Shown here: piece after piece, positions 27,979-34,274 of the stretch
Numbering within the stretch: the first letter of the stretch is position 1
Layout of the letters: the number at the start of each line of letters is the position of its first letter
Source of the DNA: Alphaproteobacteria bacterium
GTDB lineage: Bacteria > Pseudomonadota > Alphaproteobacteria > Elsterales > Elsteraceae
Length of the DNA stretch: 48,376 bases
NCBI GenBank assembly: GCA_004292755.1
Contig: RDXE01000076.1
Location: 1-48,376, forward strand
Direction of reading: 5' to 3'
The notes under the pieces: generated by a model
Seen by the model: only the letters and a program-made list of their open reading frames with translations
Databases searched by the model: none
Told to the model about the DNA's origin: nothing
Translations under genes and position numbers: made by a program

Positions 27979-29730
27979 TTACGCAGACACCTCCTCCGGC
28001 GTGTCCGGTCGCGGGCGGTGAAAGTCACCGCTCGCGACCAAGCCGGAGAAGACACCGCCAGCCGCAGCCAAGTCGCCGAAGCGACCGCGCTCGACAATCC
28101 GACCGGCCTGCAGCACCAGGATTTCATCGGCATCGGCGATGGTAGACAGTCGGTGCGCGATGATCAGTGTGGTGCGCCCCTGCCGCAACCGATCCAGCGC
28201 GCGCTTGATCGTCATCTCGGTGGTGGGGTCGAGGGCGCTGGTGGCTTCGTCCAGAATCAAAATCGGCGCGTCCTTCAAGATCGCCCGCGCGATGGCGAGG
28301 CGTTGACGCTCCCCTCCCGACAAAAACAAGCCCCGCTCGCCAATCACAAAGCCGTAGCCACCGGGCTTTGCCTGGATGAAGTCGTGGGCTTCAGCGGCGC
28401 GAGCAGCCGCCTCCACCTCAGCGTCGGTCGCATCGGGGCGGCCGAGGCGGATGTTTTCTGCAATTGAGCGGTTGAACAGACCCGCATCCTGGAACACCAC
28501 GGCGACGGCCGCGCGCAGGTCCGACAGGCGGATCGTCGCGATGTCCACGCCATCGACGAGAATCTGCCCCGCTTCAGGCTCGCGCACCCGCTGCAACAGG
28601 GCGAGTGTGGTGGTTTTGCCGGAACCCGTGGCACCAACCAGCGCCACCGTTCGCCCCGCTGGCACCTCAAAGCTGATGTCAAACACCCCTTGGCCCGAGG
28701 CGCTGCCATACCGGTAGCTGACCCCGTGATAGGTGATCGTCCCCGTCACCGGGCCGAGCGGCCTCGCATCGGCTGCGTCATGGACCGCAGGCGCCTGATC
28801 AGCAAAATCAAAATAGCTGCGCAGCACAGGGGCGGATTGAAAGGTGCGCACCGCAAAGGCCGAGAGGTGGTCAAGCTTGCTGATCAGCAACCCAGCCAGC
28901 GCGATGAAACTGACAATCTCGCCCACGGAAATCTCGCCGCGCGCGGCGAGGATGGAGCCTAAGGCGAACACCACCACCATGGTGATGGTGCTGGCCGCAC
29001 TGGTCAGTACCGTCAGCAATCCCCACCAAGTCAGCACAGGGTACTGCTCCGCCAGCACCTTCTCCATCAAACCGCGCATGGCAGCCATCTCGGCCGCAAA
29101 CCGGCTGTAGGACTGCACGACGGTGACATTGGCCAGCACGTCGCCGACACGGCCATACACCTCGCTATGGTACCGCTCCACTGCGCTCTGCCCAGCCGAG
29201 GTGCGGGAGACCACCAGCGCATTGGCGGCGACAAAACTCGCAGCCAGCAACCCCAGCACGGCCGCCATCCGCCAATCCAGAACAATCGCCAACGGCACCA
29301 GACACAGCACCCCGACCACTGCCGCCACTTGTTCGCGCAAGGCCGACAGCCACAGCCAGAACAAACCATCGGTGCCCGCCAGGATGGCGCGCACCACCGA
29401 TCCCGTCCCCCGCTCCGCATGCCAGGAAATCGGCAGCGTCATCGCCCGCTCGAACGCGGCCGCCATGGCGGCGAGACGGCGGCGATGGGCCATGCGATCG
29501 GCTGAAACCGCAACCGTGACCCCGGCCAGAATACCAAGGGTGCCAAGCCCGGCCCACAGCAGGATCAAATCCCCGGTCGGCTGCTGACGGCTCAGCGCAT
29601 CGATCACGCGGCCAAACAACACGGGCTCTGCCAACTGCACCAGGGCGACCAGGGCATTGGCGAGCACCAGGCCCCAAATCCACCACCCCTCCGCCCCCAG
29701 CAGTCTCAGTGCGCGCAGATACAGCGTCAC
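27979..29730 (-). CDS. ChvA/NdvA-like glucan ABC exporter (fused membrane and ATPase domains)
   Basis: An inner-membrane ABC half-transporter expected to work as a homodimer. Residues 15-310 are the six-helix membrane domain, with segments matching the beta-(1,2)-glucan exporters ChvA/NdvA: the N-terminal AEPVLFGRVIDALS, then LILLWAGLGTLGI, EQYPVLTWWGLL, and QDAGLFNRSIAENIRLG in the ATPase part. The nucleotide-binding domain has Walker A GATGSGKT at 366-373, signature LSGGERQ at 470-476, Walker B LILDEATS at 491-498 and the switch His in IIAHRLST. GTG 29730 has AAAGGA 8 nt upstream and matches the family start MTLYLRALRLLG; the frame reading back to 29877 is unlikely. The 583-residue length is the ChvA norm. 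It is divergent from the ribD-like/opgH operon, which is the context supporting a glucan substrate. Export of another polysaccharide or lipid cannot be excluded. Confidence 0.85.
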   Translation of the reverse strand: MTLYLRALRLLGAEGWWIWGLVLANALVALVQLAEPVLFGRVIDALSRQQPTGDLILLWAGLGTLGILAGVTVAVSADRMAHRRRLAAMAAAFERAMTLPISWHAERGTGSVVRAILAGTDGLFWLWLSALREQVAAVVGVLCLVPLAIVLDWRMAAVLGLLAASFVAANALVVSRTSAGQSAVERYHSEVYGRVGDVLANVTVVQSYSRFAAEMAAMRGLMEKVLAEQYPVLTWWGLLTVLTSAASTITMVVVFALGSILAARGEISVGEIVSFIALAGLLISKLDHLSAFAVRTFQSAPVLRSYFDFADQAPAVHDAADARPLGPVTGTITYHGVSYRYGSASGQGVFDISFEVPAGRTVALVGATGSGKTTTLALLQRVREPEAGQILVDGVDIATIRLSDLRAAVAVVFQDAGLFNRSIAENIRLGRPDATDAEVEAAARAAEAHDFIQAKPGGYGFVIGERGLFLSGGERQRLAIARAILKDAPILILDEATSALDPTTEMTIKRALDRLRQGRTTLIIAHRLSTIADADEILVLQAGRIVERGRFGDLAAAGGVFSGLVASGDFHRPRPDTPEEVSA

Positions 29731-29956
29731 GGCTCGGTTCCTTTGACGAAGGAGTACGCACCGGGCAGCGCCTGATGGCGGAGGTGCTTGAACTTTCCCG
29801 GCCCCAATGCCAGAGCAACGGCGTTCACGCAACCCCGCTGGCCGGTCTGTCACACCTAGCCCGCCTGCGCCGATCAACCGGGCCCGACGGCCCTAGCCGA
29901 CATGGCCGCGCACCCCATCTTGCTGCGGCACCCGCCTGTGATGAGGACCTGCCGCC
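29731..29956. other. Divergent intergenic region of the glucan locus
   Basis: This 226-bp region separates the ABC exporter (leftward) from the RibD-like/OpgH operon (rightward), so it should hold promoters for both. I see no gene and no strong -35/-10 pair. The GC-rich sequence includes AACCGGGCCCGACGGCCC (about 29877-29894), with short self-complementary GGGCCC, but no clear operator. Confidence 0.45.
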
Positions 29957-30691
29957 GTGATGGATGGCCCGCCCCTGCTGATCGACGCCGCCCCAGTCCC
30001 CTCCCCACTGGGGCGCTTGGCGACCAGTCGGCCCGGGGATCACATCATTGTTGGTCAGTTGGGCCAGACGCTGGACGGGCGCATCGCCACCGTGTCGGGT
30101 GACAGCAAGTGGATCAATGGCTCCGACGCGTTGGACCACTTGCACCGGCTGCGTGCAGCAGTCGATGCAGTGGTGGTCGGCGTCGGCACGGTGTTGGCCG
30201 ATGATCCGATGTTGACCGTGCGCCGCGTGCCCTGCCCCGTGGTGCCGCCAGCGCGGGTGGTGATCGATCCCCGCGGGCGTCTGGGTGCCGATTGTCGCTG
30301 CCTTAGCCCATGCGATGGTGCACGCTGTCTGGTCATCCGCTGCGTCGATGCGCCTGCCCCACCGGGGGCCGAAGTCGTGCTGCTCCCCGCGTCCTCGGGT
30401 CAGATTGATCCTGCAGCCCTGGTGGCCGCACTCGCCGCGCGTGGCCTGACCCGGCTGTTGATTGAGGGGGGGGCCACCACCCTGTCCCATTTCATGGATG
30501 CCGGGCTGGTGGATGACTTGCACCTGCTGGTCGCCCCAATGCTGCTGGGGTCTGGCAAGCCAGGCTTAACCCTATCGCCTGTCGCGCGGGTGGCGGACGC
30601 CCTGCGACCCGTGACGACACTGCATCCATTCGCCGACGGCGACGTATTGTTTGTGTGCGCGCTTCCGCGTCGCACCGCTGAGGGATCATGA
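29957..30691 (+). CDS. RibD C-terminal-domain reductase (DHFR-like fold)
   Basis: A stand-alone RibD_C (dihydrofolate reductase-like, NADPH-binding) domain protein of 244 residues, cytoplasmic. Visible motifs are the opening VGQLGQTLDGRIATVSGDSKWI, then VVVGVGTVLADDP, PPARVVIDPRGRL, and the substrate/NADPH segment LLIEGGATTLSHFMDAGLVDDL. The deaminase domain of true RibD is absent, so riboflavin synthesis as such is not implied; related stand-alone proteins reduce diverse pterin- or sugar-like substrates. GTG 29957 has GAGGA about 9 nt upstream; the adjacent ATG 29960 is equally possible. The last codon overlaps opgH as ATGA (30688-30691), so the two are translated together and probably act in one pathway (inference). 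Confidence 0.85.
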   Translation: MMDGPPLLIDAAPVPSPLGRLATSRPGDHIIVGQLGQTLDGRIATVSGDSKWINGSDALDHLHRLRAAVDAVVVGVGTVLADDPMLTVRRVPCPVVPPARVVIDPRGRLGADCRCLSPCDGARCLVIRCVDAPAPPGAEVVLLPASSGQIDPAALVAALAARGLTRLLIEGGATTLSHFMDAGLVDDLHLLVAPMLLGSGKPGLTLSPVARVADALRPVTTLHPFADGDVLFVCALPRRTAEGS

Positions 30692-32502
30692 GCGACCGAA
30701 CCCACGCCTCCGGTGCCGCTGCGGGACCGACGATAGCCACCCCTGCCCGCCCGCTGACCACCCCTGCGGGGCTGCAGTCGACCGCACAGTTGAGCCGTCG
30801 ACGCTGGCTGGTGTTGGGCCTGAATGTCCTCACCACGCTAGCATTGCTGGCGCTCGTCGCCCTGGTGTTGGCCAGCGATGGCTGGCACGCGGTAGAGGTG
30901 GTCGCGCTGGCGGCGATCAGCATTGCCATGCCGTGGACTGTGCTGGGGTTCTGGAACGCCGTGATTGGCCTCACGCTGCTGCATCGCCCTGGCGATGTGC
31001 TGGCCGATGTCGCCCCCTACGCAGCAGCTGGGGCTGAGCCAACACCGCTCACCATCCGCACGGCGGTGCTGATGACCCTGCGCAACGAAGACCCAGCCCG
31101 CGCGCTGCATCGCCTGCGCGTCGTGAAGACCAGCCTGGACGCGACAGGAAGCGGTGCGGCGTTTGACTGGTTCGTGCTGTCCGACACCAATCGCCCGGAG
31201 GTCGCCGCGGCCGAGGAAGCCGCGATCGCCCGCTGGCGGGAAGAGGAGCCGGACTCCGCCACCCGCATCCACTATCGCCGCCGGAGCGAGAACACCGGCT
31301 TCAAGGCGGGCAACCTGCGGGATTTCTGCGCGCGCTGGGGTGCTGACTATGAGTTGATGCTGCCGCTGGACGCCGACAGTGTCATGGACGGGCCGACGAT
31401 CGTGGCCCAGGTGCGCATGATGCAGGCCCACCCACGCCTTGGCATTCTGCAAAGCTTGGTGGTTGGCATGCCCGCCCAGGCGGCCTTCGCGCGGCTGTTC
31501 CAGTTTGGCATGCGCCACGCGATGCGCAGCTACACCATGGGTCAGGCCTGGTGGACTGGCGATTGCGGGCCATTCTGGGGGCACAATGCTCTTGTGCGCA
31601 TCCGTCCCTTCGCCGATGCCTGCCATTTGCCGATGCTGCCGGGCAAGCCGCCCCTGGGAGGGCACATCCTCTCCCACGATCAAGTGGAGGCAACCTTGAT
31701 GCGGCGCGCGGGCTATGAGGTGCGCGTTCTGCCGGTTGAGGGCGGGTCCTGGGAAGAGAATCCCCCCTCGATGCCCGATTTCGTCCAGCGCGACCTGCGC
31801 TGGTGTCAGGGGAACCTGCAATATCTGAAGCTGCTGTCGCTGCCCGGCCTGTTGCCGATGAGCCGCTTCCAGCTGGTGTGGGCGATTGCCATGTTCGCCG
31901 GCATTCCGGCCTGGACCCTGGTGATCGCCCTCCTGCCCCTGCTGGCGCTGGCAGCGGGACCAGCCTTTCCGGCACCCTTGGCGATTGCCCTGTTCGTGCT
32001 CTACCTCGGGATGTTCCTGACGCCGAAGCTGGCTGGCTTGGTGGATGTGTTGCTGACGCCGGGTGGCGCCGCCCGCTACGGCGGTGGAATGCGCCTAATG
32101 GCCGGGGCAGCCGCTGAAACCCTGTTCAGCTTCCTGCAAAGTGCCGCCTCCACCCTACACACCACGCTGTTCATGATCGGCATCCTGTTCGGCCGCACCG
32201 TCAGTTGGGGTGGGCAGGCGCGGGATCCGCGGCGGCTCGCGTGGGGGGAGGCCGCTCGCCTGCTCTGGCCGCAAACCCTGTTTGGAACAGTGGTGGTTGG
32301 CTCGCTGGTGATCCTGGCGCCTGCGCTGGCTTTGTGGAGCTTGCCACTGACCCTTGGCTATCTGGTTGCGATTCCCTTCGCCGTCGTCACGGCCAACCCG
32401 GCCCTGTCCGCGTGGTTGGTGCGCCATGGCATCGCCGCCATTCCAGAGGACATCGCCGCCCCCGCTGAGGTGCAGGCGGTGGCGGCTGGGCCCGGCCGAT
32501 GA
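30688..32502 (+). CDS. opgH: OpgH/MdoH-type glucans biosynthesis glucosyltransferase
   Basis: A polytopic inner-membrane GT2 enzyme that polymerises glucose from UDP-glucose into the beta-1,2-glucan backbone of osmoregulated periplasmic glucans and probably extrudes it. OpgH landmarks are clear: TAVLMTLRNEDP (about 125-135), SENTGFKAGNLRDFC, the DxD motif in LDADSVMDG (228-230), GPFWGHNALVRI, the catalytic SHDQVEATLMRRAG (about 329-342), and RDLRWCQGNLQYL, the Q/RxxRW-like motif (368-380). Two N-terminal and about five C-terminal membrane helices flank the catalytic domain. The 604-residue length fits alphaproteobacterial OpgH (E. coli OpgH is longer, about 850). It overlaps its neighbours on both sides by 4 bp. 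The usual periplasmic partner opgG/opgD is absent from the window. Confidence 0.93.
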   Translation: MSDRTHASGAAAGPTIATPARPLTTPAGLQSTAQLSRRRWLVLGLNVLTTLALLALVALVLASDGWHAVEVVALAAISIAMPWTVLGFWNAVIGLTLLHRPGDVLADVAPYAAAGAEPTPLTIRTAVLMTLRNEDPARALHRLRVVKTSLDATGSGAAFDWFVLSDTNRPEVAAAEEAAIARWREEEPDSATRIHYRRRSENTGFKAGNLRDFCARWGADYELMLPLDADSVMDGPTIVAQVRMMQAHPRLGILQSLVVGMPAQAAFARLFQFGMRHAMRSYTMGQAWWTGDCGPFWGHNALVRIRPFADACHLPMLPGKPPLGGHILSHDQVEATLMRRAGYEVRVLPVEGGSWEENPPSMPDFVQRDLRWCQGNLQYLKLLSLPGLLPMSRFQLVWAIAMFAGIPAWTLVIALLPLLALAAGPAFPAPLAIALFVLYLGMFLTPKLAGLVDVLLTPGGAARYGGGMRLMAGAAAETLFSFLQSAASTLHTTLFMIGILFGRTVSWGGQARDPRRLAWGEAARLLWPQTLFGTVVVGSLVILAPALALWSLPLTLGYLVAIPFAVVTANPALSAWLVRHGIAAIPEDIAAPAEVQAVAAGPGR

Positions 32503-33239
32503 GCCCGGCCCTCGCGGGTCTGGTTCGATCACTGGCTGTCTACCGCCGGGATGCCGCCCATGCCCAACGGCTCGACGGCATGTATCGCCGGTATCTCCAG
32601 CCCGGCACGCTCGCCTTCGACATTGGCGCCCATGTCGGCGACCGCATCGCCTCCTTTCGCCGCTGTGGCGCGCGCGTGGTGGCACTGGAGCCGCAGCCGC
32701 TGTGTCTGCGCGCCTTGCGCCTGCTGCATGGTCGTGACCCAGCAGTCACGTTGCTGGCCGCCGCCTGCGGTGCGGCGGTGGGCAAGCTCGACCTCCTGGT
32801 CAACCGCGCCAACCCCACCGTGACCACAGCCTCCCCAGCCTTTGTCGCCGCAGCTGATGGCGCCGTGGGGTGGGAGGGACAGCGCTGGGATGCGCGCCTC
32901 ACCGTGCCGGTGACCACCCTTGATCAGCTGATCGCCGAACACGGCCTGCCTGCCTTCATCAAGATTGATGTTGAAGGCTTCGAAGATGCCGTGCTGGCTG
33001 GCCTCAGCCAGCAGCCAGCCGCTCTGAGTGTGGAGTTTACCACCATTCAACGCCGTGTCGCTCTCGCCTGCCTGCACCGCCTGGAGGGACTCGGCTACCG
33101 GGCCTTTCGGGTCGCCCTGGGGGAGAGCCACAGCTTCCTGCACCCTGAGCCCTTGTCCGCTGCGGCGATGGCGGCTGTGATCAGCACCCTGCCGTCCGAG
33201 GCAAATTCCGGAGACATCTATGCCGAACGCGCCGATTAG
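32499..33239 (+). CDS. FkbM family methyltransferase
   Basis: A cytoplasmic SAM-dependent methyltransferase of 246 residues. The SAM-binding glycine motif is FDIGAHVGDRIASFRRCG (about residues 40-57), followed by the acidic strand end VVALEPQPLCL and the FkbM-specific IKIDVEGFEDAVLAGL (about 151-166). The N-terminal 35 residues contain several Arg residues. FkbM enzymes usually O-methylate sugars or polyketides, so a glucan-methylating role is reasonable but inferred. It overlaps opgH by 4 bp (ATGA 32499-32502) and the next gene by 20 bp, so it belongs to a tightly coupled operon. Confidence 0.88.
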   Translation: MSPALAGLVRSLAVYRRDAAHAQRLDGMYRRYLQPGTLAFDIGAHVGDRIASFRRCGARVVALEPQPLCLRALRLLHGRDPAVTLLAAACGAAVGKLDLLVNRANPTVTTASPAFVAAADGAVGWEGQRWDARLTVPVTTLDQLIAEHGLPAFIKIDVEGFEDAVLAGLSQQPAALSVEFTTIQRRVALACLHRLEGLGYRAFRVALGESHSFLHPEPLSAAAMAAVISTLPSEANSGDIYAERAD

Positions 33240-34167
33240 TCGTCGCTTGCTGCTGGCCGCTGCTGGCCTTGCCCCATTGCCACTGGGGGCGGCGACGCTG
33301 GATGGATTGGCCGTAACTGTGGTGAACAGCTCCGAACCAGTGCTATGCGCCGAAAAGGACAATGTGACCCTGACGGTCGCCTCGCCCGAGATTGGCTCGT
33401 TCAGTTTGGAGGCGCTGCACCCGGCGTACATCGACACCCTGCAACGCGATCGTTTCGCCCCAGACTGGACCGCTTGCGACATGGCAGGCGACCCAGTCCA
33501 TCCAGCCGAACCGCGCCGGATCACCCTTTATGAGGATTGGGACCTGCAACTGGTCGGCTACACCTTTCCTGGTTTCTGGCGCCCCGGTGAGGTTCCATTG
33601 ATGATTGGGGAGCGTCGGGAAACCGGTCTGCACATGCTCCAGCTCTGGGTCCGCGTCGACGAACGGGCCGAAGAAGTGTTGGTACTCTACCCACCCGACG
33701 GCTACTGGCGCGCGCGGCCTCTGCCACCCAGGCACCTCGGCTGGTCCGCCTATGGCACATCCTTCCTGGTTGGCCCGGTGGAACTGCTGGGACGCCCAAC
33801 GGTTCGCCTGACCGAGGTGCGCTTTGTGCCACGCGAAAAACGGTTCGACTTACGATTCGCCGCCGGTGGCCACGGCACTGTGCGGCTGGCAGAGCTGACC
33901 AGGGATCGTCAGTTGTTGACTGTCGCGTTGGCCGACACCCCAGGCGCCCTGCCCTTCGCGGCCCTGCGCTCAATGTATATCACCGAGGTGAATGCCGATG
34001 CCGCGCGCGTGGCGATGCGCGGCCCTGGCGCGCGCGGCTGGGTGGAGGCGCCCGTGATGGGCTTTGCTGGCGGCGAGGCGACCGACCTTTGGCTCGGCCG
34101 ACACATCCCCTCGCGCCACAACACCTCGGCGCCAGACATGCACCTGTTCCAGTTCCGCCGCCGGTAA
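33220..34167 (+). CDS. Uncharacterised exported protein of the glucan operon (315 aa)
   Basis: I do not recognise the family. ATG 33220 has GGAG about 7 nt upstream and overlaps the FkbM gene by 20 bp. The N-terminus ISRRLLLAAAGLAPLPLGAA is a signal peptide with a twin-arginine-like SRRLLL, so export by Tat or Sec is likely. The mature region is about 290 residues of mostly beta-rich sequence with many Trp, Tyr and Arg residues and two Cys (VLCAEKD, WTACDM) that could form a disulfide. Segments such as LYEDWDLQLVGYTFPGFWRPG and SAYGTSFLVGPVELLG look like a carbohydrate-binding or processing fold, but this is inference. It is far shorter than OpgG (about 500 residues) and shows no obvious OpgG motifs. 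Its position after opgH and FkbM suggests a periplasmic step acting on the glucan. Confidence 0.75.
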   Translation: MPNAPISRRLLLAAAGLAPLPLGAATLDGLAVTVVNSSEPVLCAEKDNVTLTVASPEIGSFSLEALHPAYIDTLQRDRFAPDWTACDMAGDPVHPAEPRRITLYEDWDLQLVGYTFPGFWRPGEVPLMIGERRETGLHMLQLWVRVDERAEEVLVLYPPDGYWRARPLPPRHLGWSAYGTSFLVGPVELLGRPTVRLTEVRFVPREKRFDLRFAAGGHGTVRLAELTRDRQLLTVALADTPGALPFAALRSMYITEVNADAARVAMRGPGARGWVEAPVMGFAGGEATDLWLGRHIPSRHNTSAPDMHLFQFRRR

Positions 34168-34205
34168 CACCCGTCCCCGGGGATCAACATCAGCCGAGAA
34201 AACGA

Positions 34206-34237
34206 CAACAGGCGGAGGATTGCTCCTCCGCCTGTTG
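34206..34237 (-). terminator. Terminator of the ribosomal-protein block (after rplQ)
   Basis: CAACAGGCGGAGG (34206-34218) pairs perfectly with CCTCCGCCTGTTG (34225-34237), with a short ATTGCT between them. On the minus strand the stem is followed by GTTTTC (AAAA at 34199-34202 on the plus strand), giving the T-tract of an intrinsic terminator for the rplQ side. It may also stop the convergent glucan operon, which ends at 34167, but the plus-strand side has no T-run. Confidence 0.85.
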
Positions 34238-34274
34238 CGTGTTCGGACTTGAGCCTCGCCGACGTGGCGGTGGC

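Follow-up and report, generated by a model that had tools for sequence, protein, structure and literature searches.

A 315-residue exported protein encoded at the end of an OpgH operon is probably a single-domain, OpgG-fold protein that partners a distinct OpgH branch in the periplasm, standing in the place of OpgG. We refer to this protein as T315. Its gene lies in the window, the whole stretch of 48,376 nucleotides of alphaproteobacterial DNA analysed here, where the gene order on the plus strand is OpgH, FkbM, T315. The features are as follows.

27979-29877, minus strand: ChvA/NdvA-type glucan exporter, an ABC transporter (NF010178, TIGR01192), upstream of and outside the operon.
30688-32502, plus strand: OpgH/MdoH glucan glucosyltransferase, 604 amino acids, 'type A' clade (NF003963).
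32499-33239, plus strand: FkbM-family methyltransferase, 246 amino acids (PF05050/TIGR01444), with OpgH on one side and T315 on the other.
33220-34167, plus strand: T315, the exported 315-amino-acid OpgG-fold protein (open reading frame, AlphaFold2 model, structural match).
33220-33294, plus strand: T315 signal peptide, about residues 1-25, with RR in this copy (sequence, low pLDDT).
33310-33486, plus strand: N-terminal beta part of T315, residues 31-89, containing the invariant C43 and C86, outside the OpgG match.
33487-34164, plus strand: OpgG-like beta-sandwich of T315, residues 90-315 (matching OpgG 54-343 and OpgD 74-370).
33997-33999, plus strand: codon of T315 D260, invariant, a candidate equivalent of OpgD D300 (the register may be off by about 2 residues).

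The original prediction had described a 315-residue exported protein coupled to OpgH and FkbM, and both the coupling and the coordinates were confirmed. T315 starts with an ATG that has GGAG immediately 5'; as FkbM ends at 33239 and T315 starts at 33220, the two overlap by 20 bp, as had been stated, and OpgH and FkbM overlap by 4 bp (32499-32502). OpgH scored 929.7 bits against NF003963 (cut-off 884), and FkbM scored above the cut-offs of PF05050 and TIGR01444. A RibD-C gene (29957-30691) lies just before OpgH. The exporter scored 767.1 bits against NF010178 (cut-off 733) and 643.5 against TIGR01192 (cut-off 585.4); it is possibly related in function to the OpgH operon and may export the OpgH glucan. 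It adjoins the operon in one further locus (L002); the other loci compared, which have short flanks, gave none at E ≤ 1e-20. A hairpin with a 14-bp stem (34206-34237; folding z = -6.5 for 34180-34250) separates T315 from the convergent gene downstream and is perhaps a two-way terminator.

The T315 frame is real and not a chance one, as the matched segments of the 80 kept loci are 50-69% identical to it. In the profile search that the original prediction had called for, having itself recognized no family, T315 matched no Pfam or NCBIfam family at E ≤ 10. Across 81 members (the window copy and 80 relatives), 14 Pfam families appeared at E ≤ 1, none convincing and none of them MdoG, and the best match was to a signal-sequence model (E 0.0011). 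PF04349 was matched neither by T315 nor by any of the 81 alignment members at E ≤ 1, a sequence search of the PDB with T315 gave no credible match, and no OpgG sequence motif could be detected in T315, in agreement with the prediction.

A hydrophobic N-terminal stretch was present in 74 of 82 T315 rows. The motif RRx[FLIMV] occurred within the first 40 residues in only four of the 82, the window copy among them, so that the twin-arginine-like signal proposed originally describes the window copy (SRRLLLA) and not the family; a Tat-dependent T315 family was ruled out on the same count. In a 112-row alignment, which keeps duplicates (for example, L002 and L082 are the same contig), the two cysteines noted before, C43 and C86, were invariant in every row and would probably form a disulfide in the N-terminal part. 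Thirty-one columns were invariant in the 112 rows, many of them polar or acidic. Besides D260, the invariant polar residues include D77, E152, R164, R250, R294, S298, H300, N301 and D306, which could serve binding or catalysis.

AlphaFold2, given the 81-row alignment, modelled T315 as an all-beta protein (pLDDT 91.3, pTM 0.87), bearing out the beta-rich mature part that had been predicted. In the structural comparison with OpgG and OpgD that had also been proposed, these two proteins were the best fold matches. VIA-align 2, which re-ranks solely chains proposed by Foldseek, placed Escherichia coli OpgG first (1txk; Z 14.8, 2.9 Å over 213 residues, 13% identity), followed by OpgG 8ip2 (Z 14.7) and OpgD 8ip1 (Z 13.8); the next unrelated chain had Z 6.6, a lead of 7 to 8 Z for OpgG/OpgD. 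T315 residues 90-315 correspond in this whole model to OpgG 54-343 and OpgD 74-370. With a second model, limited to residues 28-270 (pLDDT 87.2), the top matches were 8ip2 at Z 9.8 (3.5 Å, 170 residues), 1txk at 9.7, and 9e08 and 8ip1 both at 8.9, with the next chain at 5.8 and hence a lead of 3 to 4 Z; here T315 90-270 corresponds to OpgG 48-285 and OpgD 71-312. Lower VIA-align ranks for T315 include GH38 mannosidases (Z 6.3 and 6.2), GH38 being the glycoside hydrolase family nearest OpgD in a published DALI search (PMC10514313). Foldseek alone returned nothing at E ≤ 0.001 for the T315 model, either against the PDB or against viral structure predictions.

Profile-profile comparison by hhalign with 30 MdoG sequences was not significant (E 0.042 with the 81-row profile, 0.08 with the 112-row profile). 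We ran it in local, global and structural-range modes, with 60 column-shuffled profiles and one reversed profile as controls. On the structurally matched ranges E was 0.14 and the score 17.4; the reversed profile scored 19.0, and the 60 shuffled ones had a median of 16.0 and reached 21.4 at most. Because hhalign did no better than with shuffled or reversed columns, sequence does not demonstrate common descent with OpgG; the case for shared descent is the fold plus the genomic context. That T315 shares the fold of the OpgG N-terminal beta-sandwich is, as a model-based prediction, well supported. An unrelated known family and a fold devoid of any carbohydrate link, the two outcomes that the original prediction had named as counting against it, were both looked for, and neither was found.

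The matched region stops short of part of the OpgG/OpgD active site. In OpgD, D388 is the general acid and D300 the proposed general base (PMC10514313); the OpgG counterparts are D361 and D273, respectively. OpgG W343 is the equivalent of OpgD W370 in full-length numbering, and the matched ranges are therefore in full-length numbering too. Residue 315, the last of T315, closes the match at W343/W370, 18 residues short of the general acid, and the segment holding OpgD D388/OpgG D361 is absent from T315, which has no residues beyond 315. Equating T315 D306 with the general acid D388 was dropped on these grounds. D260, invariant in 112 of 112 rows, lies 10 residues before G270, and the fragment range ends pair G270 with OpgG 284-285 and OpgD 311-312, that is, 11-12 residues past D273/D300. 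The models thus make D260 a candidate counterpart of the general base D300, to within about 2 residues by range ends; the D300 position is itself not invariant among the 30 MdoG sequences compared.

T315 also ends before both the OpgG/OpgD C-terminal domain and Loop A (OpgD 434-453; PMC10514313). The original prediction had put it at about 200 residues shorter than OpgG, and it is the C-terminal domain that T315 lacks. Some GH186 clades have no Loop A, according to the OpgD authors (PMC10514313). The same study reports that E. coli OpgG has OpgD's three catalytic residues and is very slow, yet indispensable for glucan. As OpgG is indispensable despite being so slow a glucanase, loss of the general acid is no argument against an OpgG-like role. 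T315 should nevertheless not be filed as a member of GH186/MdoG, since it does not match the PF04349 profile and has neither the general-acid segment nor the C-terminal domain.

To place T315 among its neighbours, we scanned genome contigs, which yielded 240 stretches encoding T315 relatives; neighbour counts use the best 80 of these. By record title the 80 are mostly Hyphomicrobiales (Chelatococcus, Bosea, Methylobacterium, Azorhizobium, Microvirga, Phreatobacter and others). Neighbours were identified by profile and BLAST anchors; all-against-all clustering of open reading frames was set aside because shadow frames in GC-rich DNA polluted the neighbours. Genes in 12 of the 13 loci that lack OpgH were called from GC at codon positions, a method that gave no calls in L013. 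OpgH lay just upstream of T315 in 67 of the best 80 loci: 51 had the order OpgH-FkbM-T315 and 16 had OpgH-T315 without FkbM. No OpgH was nearby in the other 13, among them L032, whose contig extends only 498 bp upstream. Within loci that are themselves the best T315 matches, T315 thus follows OpgH more faithfully than FkbM does, and FkbM as an obligatory partner was rejected on account of the 16 loci without it.

Several individual loci depart from this arrangement. In L139 (4213-7128, genome G257) a single open frame of 972 codons covers both OpgH and T315, with a linker and a second hydrophobic stretch ahead of T315; this is probably a natural fusion, with an internal start as the alternative. 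Two loci from Methylosinus and Methylocystis records (L048:5977-7862 and L075:5980-7889) have no OpgH nearby and carry an HGSNAT_cat membrane acyltransferase (PF07786) directly after T315. A second, diverged T315 (360-396 bits) is found in several genomes (G065:C2:2200686, G078:C18:22763, G079:C2:467223 and others), some copies with an in-frame stop. L011 (G081:C15), from a record filed as Pseudomonas syringae GR12-2, has T315 without an adjoining OpgH; about 2.5 kb away lies an MdoG gene read in two frames. This locus is either a misassigned contig or a transfer.

We compared partners in 25 T315-carrying genomes, 24 reached through named loci chosen from the 80 plus the window's own, leaving out a 19-bit OpgH fragment and a 78-bit MdoG fragment (the latter from G081). 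NF003963 scores split the OpgH proteins of these genomes into 24 of type A (643-988 bits) and 22 of type B (350-445 bits). Counting as 'beside' anything within 2 kb, T315 was beside 17 of the 24 type A and none of the 22 type B OpgH, and MdoG was beside all 22 of type B and none of the 24 of type A. A midpoint-rooted FastTree tree of 100 chosen OpgH sequences (67 beside T315, 18 beside MdoG, 15 beside neither) placed the 18 MdoG-side sequences, including that of E. coli, in one clade (support 1.0) and the other 82 in a second (0.94). Beyond 2 kb the separation between OpgH clade and partner is not absolute: L127 has an OpgG-OpgH pair about 5 kb away from T315, the T315 and MdoG operons of L135 are within about 7 kb of each other, and in G081, as noted, MdoG is about 2.5 kb from T315.

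The association extended to an even sample of 199 genomes from the Chelatococcus order, in which all type A OpgH fall among the matches listed and MdoG was scored by eye in the genome table. T315 was found in 35 of them. Type A OpgH was present in 31 of these 35 and in 22 of the 164 without T315 (P = 7e-18, Fisher exact test, kinship ignored), and T315 lay within 2 kb of 21 of the 54 type A OpgH. The 22 genomes with type A OpgH and no T315 indicate that this OpgH can do without T315; six of them (G098, G120, G153, G183, G205 and G244) have neither T315 nor MdoG among the matches listed. Ten of the 22 T315-less type A loci were examined, and in three a secreted alpha/beta hydrolase, possibly a third kind of OpgH partner, comes right after OpgH:

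L113:8510-9388, secreted alpha/beta hydrolase after type A OpgH.
L114:4723-5571, secreted alpha/beta hydrolase after type A OpgH.
L115:5932-7080, secreted alpha/beta hydrolase after type A OpgH.

L120 has FkbM alone, and L118 has OpgC nearby. Upstream of the type A OpgH in loci L113-L122 there is often a RibD-C-like reductase, a zinc dehydrogenase resembling BchC, a GT4 glycosyltransferase and a small methyltransferase.

The window genome itself (99.91% complete) encodes OpgH and gave no MdoG (PF04349) match, with E. coli as a positive control. No MdoG was found in T315 genomes G070 and G080 either. Among the matches listed, 33 of the 35 T315 genomes in the set of 199 carry MdoG too, the exceptions being G070 and G248. 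The notion that T315 replaces OpgG in every genome was rejected, as most carriers in our samples have both.

Among 60 genomes (the window's own and its relatives) T315 occurred in two, the window's own and one other of its genus, and was absent from seven others of the family. It was present in six of 387 genomes in a class sample and nine of 397 in a phylum sample, the window's own included in both, with two of the nine in another class. The window OpgH nests inside Hyphomicrobiales OpgH (supports 0.95 to 0.98); in the T315 tree the nearest outer node is weak (0.50) and deeper nodes have 0.83 and 0.99. This placement suggests that the cassette was transferred into the source lineage.

Taken with the fold, the pairing with type A OpgH makes T315 probably a stripped-down stand-in for OpgG, most likely working as OpgG does. 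OpgH would make the glucan chain and pass it through the inner membrane, as described for the E. coli enzyme; FkbM, where present, may act in the cytoplasm to O-methylate the glucan or one of its precursors, a step suggested by its family only; exported T315 would then bind the emerging chain in its sandwich cleft and could help to release, size or further modify it. Glucan binding, any catalysis and contact with OpgH are inferences. From its position alone, the original prediction had guessed at a periplasmic glucan-processing or branching role, which is supported in part: the OpgG/OpgD fold and the lack of any refuting family agree with a glucan role, processing is not demonstrated, the general-acid segment being missing, and branching found no support.

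The main competing reading is that T315 is an active glucanase or transglycosylase of the OpgG fold that takes its second catalytic residue from elsewhere (for example, R294, H300, N301 or D306) and sets chain length or closes a ring. The invariant columns, with D260 and these four among them, form an enzyme-like pattern, D260 falls near OpgD D300 by the fragment range ends, and GH186 has both hydrolases and a transglycosylase among its known members (PMC11842490). However, the match stops before the OpgG/OpgD general acid, and since E. coli OpgG is indispensable although very slow (PMC10514313), the OpgG role may call for no activity; we regard an active enzyme as a real possibility, though less likely than not. 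Should T315 instead serve decoration rather than synthesis, presenting glucan to an enzyme that adds acyl or other groups, FkbM between OpgH and T315 in most of the best 80 loci and the acyltransferase after T315 in L048 and L075 would find an explanation. Yet OpgH-T315 without FkbM recurs, FkbM is expected in the cytoplasm and T315 outside it, and the acyltransferase neighbour is confined to those two loci, so a role in decoration seems unlikely.

It is more doubtful still that T315 is a generic galactose-mutarotase-like beta-sandwich with some other envelope role, its link to OpgG being coincidental. The want of any sequence-level signal to MdoG, the empty result of Foldseek alone, the weak matches to other sandwich domains (Z 5 to 6.6) and the T315 genes without OpgH nearby would fit such a protein. 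Against it, OpgG and OpgD lead the structural ranking with the whole and the fragment model alike, and OpgH adjacency and fold are two independent lines to the same family. A bolder extension of the stand-in reading, which we offer tentatively and think rather less probable than not, is that there are two OpgH lineages, one with OpgG and the other, mainly in Hyphomicrobiales, with the undescribed minimal T315. T315 would there carry out the essential OpgG step without the catalytic pair, on an FkbM-methylated and hence unrecognized O-methylated periplasmic glucan, and the single OpgH-T315 frame would be a case of the partner tethered to its synthase.

OpgG's job is unsettled, the protein being indispensable in E. 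coli and a very slow enzyme (PMC10514313). With a one-domain partner that apparently has no general acid, what is essential in OpgG could be told apart from its enzymology and tested on a small protein. Such a partner would also complete some alphaproteobacterial OpgH operons in which OpgG is missing. The FkbM gene in the operon points to a possible methylated glucan. In the open-access literature (most subscription papers lie outside it), we found no description of a T315-type partner and no link of FkbM with opgH or periplasmic glucan.

Among known systems, the closest likeness is to OpgG/OpgD (MdoG/MdoD, PF04349, GH186): T315 is exported, encoded beside OpgH, has a predicted beta-sandwich matching over 213 residues and carries a candidate general-base aspartate. 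Unlike OpgG/OpgD, it has no PF04349 match, falls about 200 residues short of their length, is without C-terminal domain, Loop A or general-acid segment, and has an N-terminal part of its own with two invariant cysteines. In E. coli opgG precedes opgH, whereas T315 stands after OpgH and often after FkbM.

The NdvB-type synthase of the cyclic beta-1,2-glucan system (ChvA/NdvA with ChvB/NdvB) carries the GH94 domain PF06165. What the T315 locus shares with this system is a ChvA-type exporter next to the operon, in L002 as in the window, but the synthase in the window genome is OpgH, and that genome gave no PF06165 match in a search run without an NdvB-bearing control genome. Caulobacter resembles the window genome in having an alphaproteobacterial OpgH and no OpgG; there, opgH is reported to be the only opg gene (PMC11389396), whereas the window genome has a dedicated exported partner.
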